A DNA stretch of 64,000 bases from Micromonospora pallida (GTDB taxonomy: Bacteria > Actinomycetota > Actinomycetes > Mycobacteriales > Micromonosporaceae): positions 186,001 through 250,000 of the forward strand of contig NZ_FMHW01000002.1 of NCBI RefSeq assembly GCF_900090325.1, written 5' to 3'. Made by a program: the position numbers and the translations under genes. The notes beneath the pieces were generated by a model. The model ran no database searches, was not told where the DNA came from, and saw nothing but the letters and a program-made list of their open reading frames with translations. Positions 41,150 to 45,769 of the stretch are shown here, in pieces (within the stretch, counting starts at the first letter, position 1; the number at the start of each line of letters is the position of its first letter).

Positions 41150-42136
41150 TCAGCCGACCGGGCTGGCCGAACGCGCATCGAGGGCCTGCCGGTAGAGCCG
41201 TCCCGCCCGGTACGAGGAGCGCACCAGCGGCCCGCTCATCACCCCGGCGAACCCGATCTCCTCGGCCTCCTCGCGCAGCTCGACGAACTCCTCCGGCTTG
41301 ACCCAGCGCTCGACCGGGTGGTGGCGCGGGGTGGGGCGGAGGTACTGCGTGATGGTGATCAGCTCGCAGCCGGCCTGGTGCAGGTCCCGCAGCGCCTGGG
41401 TGACCTCGGCGCGCTCCTCGCCCATGCCGAGGATCAGGTTGCTCTTGGTGACCAGGCCGGCGGCGCGCGCCTGCCGGATCACGTCCAGGGAACGCTCGTA
41501 GCGGAACGCCGGCCGGATCCGCTTGAAGATCCGGGGCACCGTCTCGACGTTGTGCGCGAGCACCTCCGGCCGGGATCCGAAGACCTCGGCGAGCTGCTCG
41601 GGCACCGCGTTGAAGTCGGGGATCAGCAACTCGACACCGCAGTCGGCCTGGAGGGCGTGGATCTGCCGGACCGTCTCCGCGTAGAGCCACGCGCCGCCGT
41701 CGGGCAGGTCGTCCCGGGCGACGCCGGTGATCGTCGCGTAGCGCAGCCCCATCGTGGCCACCGACTCGGCGACCCGGCGCGGCTCGTCGGCGTCGAAGTC
41801 GGCCGGCTTGCCGGTGTCGATCTGGCAGAAGTCGCAGCGCCGGGTGCACTGGTCACCGCCGATGAGGAAGGTGGCCTCCCGGTCCTCCCAGCACTCGTAG
41901 ATGTTGGGGCAGCCGGCCTCCTGGCAGACGGTGTGCAGCCCCTCCCGGGAGACCAGCCCCCGCAGGGACGTGTACTCCGGCCCCATCTTGGCCTTGACCT
42001 TGATCCACGGGGGCTTCCGTTCGATCGGCGTCTCCGCGTTGCGTGCCTCGACCCGCAGCAGTCGCCGTCCCTCGGGGGCGACGGCGGTGGGGCGCGGAGC
42101 CTGGTCGGTGGTCGGCGCGGAGTGCTCGATGGTCAC
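41150..42136 (-). CDS. lipA: Lipoyl synthase
   Basis: 328 residues. Radical-SAM enzyme that inserts two sulfurs into octanoyl groups. It has both cluster motifs: an auxiliary [12 protein letters not shown] set near residue 75 and the radical-SAM Cys-Thr-Arg-Arg-Cys-Asp-Phe-Cys near residue 101. The closing Ser that ligates the auxiliary cluster appears in Arg-Ser-Ser-Tyr near the C-terminus. It works with LipB, which lies 3 kb away, and supplies lipoate to SucB in this window. Confidence 0.97.
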
Positions 42137-42269
42137 GGATCGAGCCTACGCCCGCTGGCGCCCGTCGATGCACTTCGGGCGACCGGGGTCACGCCCGGCG
42201 GTACGTGAGGCCACTCACCGCCAAAACCGCTGTCGGTGCCGGTGGGGGCGGCGGTAGTGTGCCCACCAC

Positions 42270-42552
42270 GAGCGACGACGGAGCCGAGTAGCGCCCCCGG
42301 AGCCAGTGCAGAGAGCCGCCGAAGTGCTGCGAGGCGGTCTGGCGACGGTGCGTGAAGACCCTCCCGAGCTGCGGGAAGAACGGCGGCGGGACGACCCGCG
42401 CCCAGTAGACCCCGCCCGGCTGGCCCCGGTGAAAAGGCGACGAACGAGGCTCCCGCCCACGGCGGGGGCGAAGGTGTGGTGGCACCGCGAGGTTCCCGCT
42501 CGCCCGCACCTCCCTGGGGATCGCGTTGCGATTGATCGAGGAGGTAACCAGC
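42270..42552 (+). promoter_or_regulatory. T-box riboswitch with Asp specifier, apparently translational
   Basis: Stem I carries AGTA at 42287, the AGAGAG distal element at 42311 and GAA followed by the GAC specifier at 42357-42359, opposite AGTA. Flanking helices pair (GCGCC with GGTGC; GGAG with CTCC). The T-box proper GGTGGCACCGCG is at 42478-42489; its bulge TGGC would pair with an NCCA end having G73, as Asp-tRNA does. Downstream, ACCTCC (42508-42513) can pair with GGAGGT of the ribosome site (42540-42545), around an inner ATCGC/GCGAT hairpin. Uncharged tRNA-Asp should free the ribosome site. No U-tract terminator is seen. Confidence 0.8.
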
Positions 42553-43839
42553 GTGCAACGCATCCTTTCCGCCCAACTTCCCACCCACGTCGGCACGACC
42601 GTCCGGATCGCCGGCTGGGTCCACCGCCGCCGGCTGCTCAAGTCGGTGGCCTTCCTGATCGTCCGGGACGCCACCGGAACCGCCCAGGTGGTGGTCGCCG
42701 ACCCGGCCACCCGGACCGCCGTCGAGGCGGCGACCGAGGAGACCGTCGTCGAGGTCGTCGGCACGGTCACCGCCAACCCGGCGGCCCCCGCCGGGGTCGA
42801 GCTGACCGACCCGACGGTACGACCGCTCGGCCCGCCGGCCGTGCCACCCCCGTTCGACCTGTTCCGGCCGACCCTGACCGCGAGCCTGCCGACGCAGCTC
42901 GACCATGCCCCGGTGGCGTTGCGCCACGCGCGCCGGTCGGCGGCGCTGCGCGTCTCGGCGGCGGCGGTCGCCGGGTTCCGGGCCGCCCTGGACGCCCGGG
43001 GCTTCGTGGAGATCCACACCCCGAAGATCGTCGGCTCGTCGACCGAGAGCGGGGCGAACGTCTTCGCCCTGGACTACTTCGGGCGGCCGGCGTACCTGGC
43101 CCAGTCGCCGCAGTTCTACAAGCAGCTCATGGTCGGCGTCCTCGAACGCGTCTACGAGGTCGGACCGGTGTTCCGGGCCGAGCCGCACGACACCGCCCGG
43201 CATCTGGCGCAGTACACCTCGCTCGACGCCGAGCTGGGTTTCGTTGCCGACCACCGGGACGTGATGGCGGTGCTCCGGGACACCCTCGCCGGACTGCTGG
43301 ACACCGTCGCCGACCGGGCCGGGCCGGCCCTGGCGCTGCTCGGCGCGGCCGTGCCGGCGGTCCCGGCGGAGATCCCCGCCGTGCACTTCACCGAGGCGCT
43401 GACGATCGCCGGCGCGCCGGCCGACGAGCCGGACCTCGCGCCGGCGCACGAGCGGACGCTGGGGGAGTGGGCCCGGCACGAGCACGGCTCCGACTTCCTC
43501 TTCGTCACCGGGTACCCGATGGTGAAACGCCCCTTCTACACCCACCCCGACCCGGCGCGGCCGGGCTACTCCAACGGGTTCGACCTGCTGTTCCGGGGCG
43601 TCGAGCTGGTCACCGGCGGGCAGCGGCTGCACCGGCACGCCGACTACCTGGCGGCGCTCGCCGCGCGGGGCGAACCGGTCGAGCCGTACGCGGACTACGT
43701 CGCCGCGTTCCGGCACGGCATGCCGCCGCACGGCGGCTTCGCCATCGGCCTCGAACGCCTGGTCGCCCGGCTGGTCGGCGCGGCCAACGTACGCGAGGTG
43801 ACCGCCTTCCCGCGCGACCTGCACCGACTCACGCCGTAG
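42553..43839 (+). CDS. aspS: Archaeal-type aspartyl-tRNA synthetase (likely non-discriminating)
   Basis: 428 residues from the GTG at 42553 after GAGGAGGT. An OB-fold anticodon domain (Arg-Ile-Ala-Gly-Trp-Val-His-Arg-Arg-Arg) comes first. The class II motifs follow: motif 1 with Gly-Phe-Val-Glu-Ile-His-Thr-Pro-Lys, motif 2 with Val-Gly-Pro-Val-Phe-Arg-Ala-Glu, and motif 3 with Gly-Gly-Phe-Ala-Ile-Gly-Leu-Glu-Arg. Short, without the bacterial insertion domain, so it is the archaeal/eukaryal type that charges tRNA-Asp and often tRNA-Asn. It may be the Asn-pathway enzyme or a second, drug-tolerant copy. It is controlled by the T-box leader. Confidence 0.88.
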   Translation: MQRILSAQLPTHVGTTVRIAGWVHRRRLLKSVAFLIVRDATGTAQVVVADPATRTAVEAATEETVVEVVGTVTANPAAPAGVELTDPTVRPLGPPAVPPPFDLFRPTLTASLPTQLDHAPVALRHARRSAALRVSAAAVAGFRAALDARGFVEIHTPKIVGSSTESGANVFALDYFGRPAYLAQSPQFYKQLMVGVLERVYEVGPVFRAEPHDTARHLAQYTSLDAELGFVADHRDVMAVLRDTLAGLLDTVADRAGPALALLGAAVPAVPAEIPAVHFTEALTIAGAPADEPDLAPAHERTLGEWARHEHGSDFLFVTGYPMVKRPFYTHPDPARPGYSNGFDLLFRGVELVTGGQRLHRHADYLAALAARGEPVEPYADYVAAFRHGMPPHGGFAIGLERLVARLVGAANVREVTAFPRDLHRLTP

Positions 43840-45127: not shown

Positions 45128-45769
45128 TCAGCTCTGGACGAGGGTGCCCAGGTGTCGCTCGACCACCGGGAGCGCGTCGGCCACGGTGACCGGGCGGCCC
45201 AGCTCCGCGCTGAGCGAGGTGACGCCGGCGTCCCGGATGCCGCAGGGCACGATCCGGTCGTAGTACGTCAGGTCGCAGTCGCAGTTGAGCGCGAAGCCGT
45301 GCTGGGTGACGCCCCGGGAGACCCGGATGCCGATCGCGGCGACCTTGCGGGCCGGGCCCCGGTCGTCGGCCGGCACCCACACCCCGCTGCGCCCCTCCAC
45401 CCGGTCGGCGACCAGCCCGAACTCGGCGCAGACGTCGATCAGGAGCTGTTCGGTCCGGCGGACGTAGGCGACCACGTCCACCGGGTCGGGCAGTCGCACG
45501 ATCGGGTAGCCGACGAGCTGGCCCGGCCCGTGCCAGGTGATCTTGCCGCCCCGGTCCACGTCGATCACCGGGGTGCCGTCCATCGGCCGGTCCCACGGTT
45601 CGGTGCGCTTACCGGCGGTGTAGACGCTCGGGTGCTCCAGCAGCAGTACGGTGTCGGGGCTCTCGCCGGCCACCACCGCCTCGTGCAGTCGGCGCTGCTC
45701 GTCCCAGGCGGTCTGGTAGTCGAGGAGCCCAGCGCGAACCGCGCTCAAACCAGAGGTCGTCGTGCTCAC
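45128..45769 (-). CDS. lipB: Octanoyl-[acyl-carrier-protein]:protein N-octanoyltransferase
   Basis: 213 residues. The family signatures are complete: [22 protein letters not shown], the catalytic Lys in Ala-Arg-Lys-Val-Ala-Ala-Ile-Gly, and the catalytic Cys in Ile-Val-Pro-Cys-Gly-Ile near residue 176. It moves octanoate from ACP to lipoyl domains such as those of SucB, for LipA to complete. In relatives lipB and lipA adjoin; here aspS and the FUSC gene lie between. Confidence 0.96.

Follow-up and report, generated by a model that had tools for sequence, protein, structure and literature searches.

A probable translational T-box riboswitch for tRNA-Asp before an accessory archaeal-type aspartyl-tRNA synthetase gene in Micromonospora pallida

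The leader of an archaeal-type aspartyl-tRNA synthetase (AspRS) gene in Micromonospora pallida is very probably a translational T-box riboswitch for tRNA-Asp, placed on an accessory AspRS. The leader lies in a 64,000-nucleotide stretch of contig NZ_FMHW01000002.1 (the window), whose numbering is used throughout unless another contig is named; the gene is referred to as aspS2 and its product as AspRS2. The features of the leader and the gene are the following.

42272-42545, + strand: T-box riboswitch with a long Stem I, upstream of the archaeal-type aspS
42272..42369, + strand: Stem I, long form, with a GGAG/CTCC helix, specifier loop, distal AG bulge and apical loop (RF00230 and covariation)
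within 42272..42369, + strand: base of Stem I, GC/GC and a K-turn-like GA region (by eye)
42287..42290, + strand: AGTA, 5' side of the specifier loop (sequence)
42310..42332, + strand: distal Stem I, with the AGAGAG bulge (42310-42315), 5' arm and apical loop, the elbow-binding region of known T-boxes (alignment to the Rfam consensus)
42354-42356 and 42357-42359, + strand: GAA followed by the Asp specifier GAC
42371..42415, + strand: Stem II, GCGGG/CCCGC with S-turn-like AAGA / AGTA (42404-42407) (sequence reading)
42449..42469, + strand: Stem III, nine perfect pairs and a CAC loop (best hairpin immediately 5' of the antisequestrator)
42472..42511, + strand: antisequestrator, with helix A1 formed by AGGTGTGG (42472-42479) and CCGCACCT (42504-42511)
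42478-42489, + strand: T-box sequence GGTGGCACCGCG
42480-42486, + strand: antisequestrator bulge TGGCACC
42487-42491 and 42499-42503, + strand: antisequestrator helix A2, GCGAG/CTCGC
42508..42545, + strand: sequestrator, ACCTCC (42508-42513) with the Shine-Dalgarno (SD) sequence GGAGGT (42540-42545) (minimum-energy fold)
42520-42532, + strand: inner hairpin of the sequestrator, ATCGC/GCGAT
42553..43839, + strand: aspS2, archaeal-type (non-discriminating family) aspartyl-tRNA synthetase, 428 aa, GTG start at 42553

A check of the sequence places every element named in the preliminary description within 42270..42552 at the spacing given there, with GGAGGT beginning 27 bases past the end of ACCTCC. 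The specifier loop consists of AGUA facing GAA plus a codon, and this codon fits the AspRS gene downstream; the A1 and A2 helices enclose a bulge of the UGGN type, UGGC, the last base of which fits G73 of the tRNA-Asp of the genome. The SD helix excludes the antisequestrator, as in translational (class II) T-boxes: ACCT at 42508-42511 is common to A1 and the sequestrator, and the two folds are therefore mutually exclusive. The AGAGA of distal Stem I aligns to the AG bulge and apical loop of the Rfam consensus and is invariant in the 72 aligned leaders with a long Stem I (described below); AGTA is likewise invariant there, although the script that selected these rows itself required it. Simple motifs for the 5' and 3' arms of Stem II are found in 82 and 83 of 129 leaders respectively, and the Stem III hairpin takes 67 distinct arm pairs over the same 129 leaders when sought by a permissive script run without a control. 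Four leaders of the Actinoplanes group (L075, L076, L078 and L086) keep a long Stem I at a specifier-to-core distance of only 56-60 bases, between which Stem II would not fit.

A pattern search of the genome located one tRNA-Asp gene; it has the anticodon GUC and ends in ...GGACC-G-CCA, so that G73 faces the C of UGGC, the fit that had been proposed for the bulge. tRNA-Asn likewise has G73; the bulge therefore cannot tell Asp from Asn, and the distinction is made by the specifier. From this anatomy and that of known T-boxes, the switch is expected to work as follows: when uncharged tRNA is lacking, ACCUCC would pair with the SD sequence GGAGGU and translation of aspS2 is predicted to be low, while the specifier GAC in Stem I would pair with the GUC anticodon of tRNA-Asp. 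The 3' GCCA of an uncharged tRNA-Asp would then pair with the UGGC bulge and stabilise the A1/A2 antisequestrator; formation of A1/A2 would withdraw ACCU from the SD sequence and allow ribosome entry. A charged tRNA would make no contact with the UGGC bulge.

The Rfam T-box model RF00230 recovers the leader in two pieces, at 42272-42369 with 37.3 bits (E 7.8e-7) and, for the 3' part, at 42443-42507 with 18.1 bits (E 0.068); the leader is the sole match at E <= 0.001 in the genome. The expected match to the model was thus obtained, but the gathering score of 93 bits is not reached, and for this reason the leader is missed in a default Rfam scan of the window, which lists RNase P RNA only (bacterial class A, at 640-1059, 269.9 bits). 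The gathering score is a search cut-off, not an anatomical feature; among 394 genomes of the class, 202 have matches to RF00230 and none reaches that score, and the Rfam cut-off thereby conceals actinobacterial T-boxes.

Conservation of the leader was followed in three samples of aspS2 loci. The first comprises the window and the best 80 loci from GTDB genomes, of which 344 encoded a relative. A long Stem I is present in 72 of these 81, and GAA-GAC in all 72, the selecting pattern having left the three specifier bases free; the prediction that the GAC specifier is kept in orthologous leaders is borne out. The nine others are L017, L034, L066 and six from Catellatospora. The T-box core is found in 80 of the 81, and the conservation proposed for its TGGC bulge holds in 76 of these cores and gives way to TGGT in the other four. 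The second sample, the best 30 loci of the same family (111 of 150 genomes were above the family cut-off), has the core in 30/30. Class-wide, 21 of 394 genomes contain an aspS2 match at E <= 1e-80 and the core lies upstream of 20 of these genes (19 loci and the window); the remaining one, L240, shows no T-box core upstream, and its match begins only at residue 85. Over all aspS2 loci examined the core is kept in 129/131, switch and gene being conserved jointly. The pool excluding L240 holds 130 leaders (the window, 80, 30 and 19), with a few genomes entered twice and 120 distinct sequences among the 129 that keep a core. A long Stem I reading GAA-GAC is present in 112 (109 by script, together with L102, L121 and L225) and a short form in 15; two have lost Stem I, and in one nothing is left. 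The bulge is UGGU in 10 of the 120 distinct leaders, where only a G-U pair with G73 would form. Control is dispensable or lost in L240, in the one Micromonospora leader that has no T-box and in the two that have no Stem I. A short palindromic element of the GGAAGGGCCCC...GGGGCCCTTNTTAAC type occurs in nine of the 130 leaders (L017, L034, L066, L022, L060, L064, L065, L069 and L119); in the first three of these, Stem I or the entire T-box is gone beside it.

The 15 leaders with no long Stem I but a short form are seven of the Catellatospora type, L109, L230 and L232-L237, the last being six leaders from three other families (f29, f39 and f2). The Catellatospora hairpin reads CCGG[AGUGACGC]CCGG, and in L230 a basal GGAG/CUCC helix closes the loop CAGACA; GAC lies in a hairpin loop closed by 4-6 pairs in L232-L235 and L237 and by three pairs in L236. 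A comparison of 95-base stretches taken upstream of the T-box leaves GAC as the sole triplet held by some hairpin loop in all 15, and the only loop triplet common to the four short-form groups; the test requires a stem of at least four pairs (three for L236) and asks only if any hairpin loop holds the triplet. The hairpins named here were chosen by eye, and several leaders contain higher-ranking hairpins with GAC. An Ile-like AUC specifier, considered for the Catellatospora leaders, was dropped given that GAC is the one loop triplet shared by all 15. On an unrooted tree of 72 AspRS2 proteins, the Catellatospora type and L232-L237 each form one side of a branch, and six or more changes of the long form are required by the supported branches. 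Provided that the long form came first, we read these as three probable shortenings (in Catellatospora, L230 and L232-L237) and three losses (in L017, L034 and L066); L109 may be a further change. The long, truncated and very short versions of Stem I within a single orthologous switch offer a natural series for learning which parts of the stem tRNA recognition needs.

Covariation and folding bear on the individual helices. In the 72-row alignment, double changes occur in 15 of the 26 predicted pairs of Stem I. Counts for the antisequestrator and the SD helix come from an alignment of 46 leaders (38 distinct) out of the 80 that have a core; the 34 T-box leaders left out of it mostly have a longer or different spacer before the SD sequence. 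In the antisequestrator 98.2% of cells are paired and five of 13 pairs show double changes, a count as high being reached in 0/500 shuffles. For ACCUCC/GGAGGU, 95.2% of cells are paired in the 46 leaders, but the compensatory changes anticipated for this helix failed to appear, with a double change in 0/6 pairs of the 46-leader alignment; the SD strand is under constraint from ribosome pairing. Outside this subset some clades have an SD helix of 8-10 pairs, such as ACCUCCAGGG/UCCUGGAGGU in L232 and ACACCUCC/GGAGGUGU in L095 and L106. In L228 and L229 the strands differ together (CACUCC/GGAGUG), a matched change that is only suggestive because the folding calculation gives no switching there. 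In 49 of 129 leaders the script detected no SD helix starting from A1. Within the spacer before the SD sequence, GCGTTGC (42523-42529) is near-invariant in the 46-row alignment, the two rows of Nonomuraea excepted, and is kept even where the surrounding hairpin changes.

Of 128 leaders, 79 gain more than 0.2 in the predicted probability of an unpaired SD sequence when A1 is forced to form, one loses more than 0.2 and 48 change less; the mean over the 128 goes from 0.18 in the free fold to 0.46. The proposal of an SD-sequestering helix accordingly stands for the fold of the window, where the value moves from 0.10 to 0.56, while 48 of the 128 leaders lack clear predicted switching. With the spacer of the window shuffled, 12 of 300 sequences switch as strongly and 14 of 300 hide the SD sequence equally well. 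Plain folding energies of three leader segments show no excess over shuffles (z -0.39, 0.34 and -0.91), and a simple scan finds no promoter-like site.

The gene downstream encodes an archaeal-type AspRS, in agreement with the preliminary description: AspRS2 scores 526.4 bits against NF003483 (aspartate--tRNA(Asn) ligase), above the equivalog cut-off of 353, and 328.7 bits against the related TIGR00458, under its cut-off of 368.4. The nearest solved structure is Thermus thermophilus AspRS2 (1n9w, E 7e-113), which is named non-discriminating and archaeal-type; the alignment gives His (in GWVH) and Pro (in PAAPAG) as in the Thermus enzyme, where the archaeal 1b8a has Trp and Lys. These positions, in the anticodon-binding domain, are presumably determinants of tRNA-Asn recognition. 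In the protein tree AspRS2 shares a supported group of 20 rows with Micromonospora species. The second, bacterial-type aspS that had been suspected is present elsewhere in the genome (C2:3633411-3635153, 840 bits), with no RF00230 match there in the genome scan, as is the amidotransferase gene gatB (468 bits), 4.3 Mb from aspS2. No asnS is found above cut-off in the genome, the top asnS match being aspS2 itself, below the cut-off. With bacterial-type aspS and gatB present and no asnS above cut-off, AspRS2 is an accessory and probably non-discriminating copy, and the tRNA-dependent asparagine route should already be supplied by the main AspRS. The divergent neighbour upstream of aspS2 is a radical-SAM gene that is lipA-like (41150-42136; LIAS_N 23.9 bits, under the cut-off of 27), and several leaders of Micromonospora and Catellatospora show the lipA side again, as judged by eye; a gene of the lipoyl-ligase family (lipB-like) follows further downstream of aspS2, at 45128-45769.

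T-boxes elsewhere in the class were read at 90 loci (30 and 60), which come from the upper part of the match list and are not a random sample. Assigned by the top BLAST match among their open frames (in the first 30 loci, a frame directly downstream of the T-box), 83 adjoin ileS, the established target, six an AspRS2-type gene and one serS; actinobacterial translational T-boxes are thus not for ileS alone. The ileS yardstick, L125, scores 522 bits against TIGR00392 on a cut-off piece, and the core has UGGU in all 83 ileS loci read. The serS leader (L143 / L241, G372:C45:63072-63318) is a T-box with a long Stem I, GAA-UCC and a UGGC bulge; a POT-family transporter gene lies near this serS. A distant AspRS2, 38% identical and with 481 bits against NF003483, stands behind a GAC/UGGC T-box at L128 / L242 (G330:C1:7679957-7680192). 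Transposase and phage tail genes lie a few kb from this last locus (the tail genes about 4 kb), which suggests mobility. G372 and G330 belong to one genus (g70, family f21).

Three other readings of the leader have to be weighed. A T-box that acts by transcription attenuation, or through Rho, and not by hiding the SD sequence would agree with the long Stem I, a kind typical of transcriptional T-boxes in the available part of PMC7583486 (which gives most translational T-boxes a short Stem I and few a long one), and with the 48 leaders of 128 in which SD hiding is not predicted. It is nonetheless improbable: no terminator-like site is found at 42140-42620, which leaves an intrinsic terminator in the leader unsupported; in the window the 3' strand of A1 leads directly into the SD complement; and the SD helix reaches up to 10 pairs in other clades.

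Fainter still is the chance that the specifier is read one base on, as ACC, ACA or ACG, and that the leader senses tRNA-Thr. A shifted frame has a counterpart in the ileS loci, 58 of 83 of which carry AUC one base farther from GAA (GAA-N-AUC-AC), but here GAC is invariant while the following base varies, the short loops have GAC alone in common, the downstream gene encodes an AspRS, and UGGC suits G73 of tRNA-Asp; a pattern search for tRNA-Thr, for comparison of base 73, gave no match. The serS leader reads UCC immediately 3' of GAA, in the same frame as GAC, and so argues that the codon is read directly after GAA. About as doubtful is a degenerate T-box relic of no present function; the unreached gathering score and the damage to three Micromonospora leaders would suit a relic, whereas the compensatory changes in Stem I and the antisequestrator, GAC in 72/72 long Stem I rows and the retention of the core in 129 of 131 loci speak against it. 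A translational T-box for tRNA-Asp remains by far the best account.

Since aspS2 supplies a second AspRS in addition to the bacterial-type enzyme, the switch would most likely boost AspRS capacity when charging of tRNA-Asp fails, be it by aspartate shortage or by weakness or inhibition of the main enzyme. A wider and more tentative idea, which we hold possible but not favoured, is that T-boxes of Actinobacteria serve as alarm switches for spare synthetases (the archaeal-type AspRS and one SerRS), off until charging by the resident enzyme fails, and that, if the long form is older, the Asp Stem I underwent three or more shortenings, which left GAC in a tiny hairpin loop. If this were true, these cassettes would be inducible backups or protection against synthetase inhibitors; archaeal-type AspRS2 as an inducible spare enzyme is in any case a testable idea.

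Translational ileS T-boxes of Actinobacteria were reportedly described by Sherwood in 2015. In the part of PMC1262725 available, T-boxes of Actinobacteria are reported only before ileS, and these share with the window a Stem I specifier, an antisequestrator with a UGGN bulge and SD sequestration with no terminator. The present leaders differ from them in the specifier (GAC here, AUC there), in a bulge that is mostly UGGC and in the target, an accessory archaeal-type AspRS. Studies by Saad in 2012 and 2013 are said, by their titles, to concern T-box control of tRNA-dependent amidation in Clostridium, the later one with a T-box RNA that reads two codons and binds two tRNAs. A legend in PMC2494555 gives Clostridium acetobutylicum three aspS genes, one of them with a T-box, and excerpts of the same source count 32 T-boxes in 12 actinobacterial genomes and mention eighteen for Symbiobacterium. 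C. acetobutylicum resembles the present case in that an extra AspRS gene carries a T-box and the genome forms asparagine by the tRNA-dependent route; unlike in that Firmicute, with its two codons (by title), a single invariant GAC is used here and gatB is 4.3 Mb away.

Asp-specific T-boxes in general share the specifier, GAC having 0.94 for Asp in the specifier table of TBDB as excerpted from PMC7778990; the present ones are set apart by an SD-pairing platform with no terminator, in Actinobacteria. The same excerpts state that TBDB applied a class II model of its own to reference genomes of Actinobacteria, and members of this group may therefore stand in TBDB without comment. The archaeal-type non-discriminating AspRS2 of Thermus and Deinococcus (1n9w; PMC4206432, in the portion available) resembles AspRS2 in family, in being a second AspRS beside a bacterial one and in its His and Pro; in contrast, the M. 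pallida genome has no asnS above cut-off, so that the main AspRS should already serve tRNA-Asn, and AspRS2 here carries a T-box. Titles and abstract openings among the literature matches listed hold no description of an Asp T-box in Actinobacteria. The mechanism is known; as far as the literature examined shows, part of it in excerpt, specificity for tRNA-Asp and an accessory AspRS as target are new in the actinobacterial translational class, described for ileS, to which tRNA-Asp and one case of tRNA-Ser are now added.
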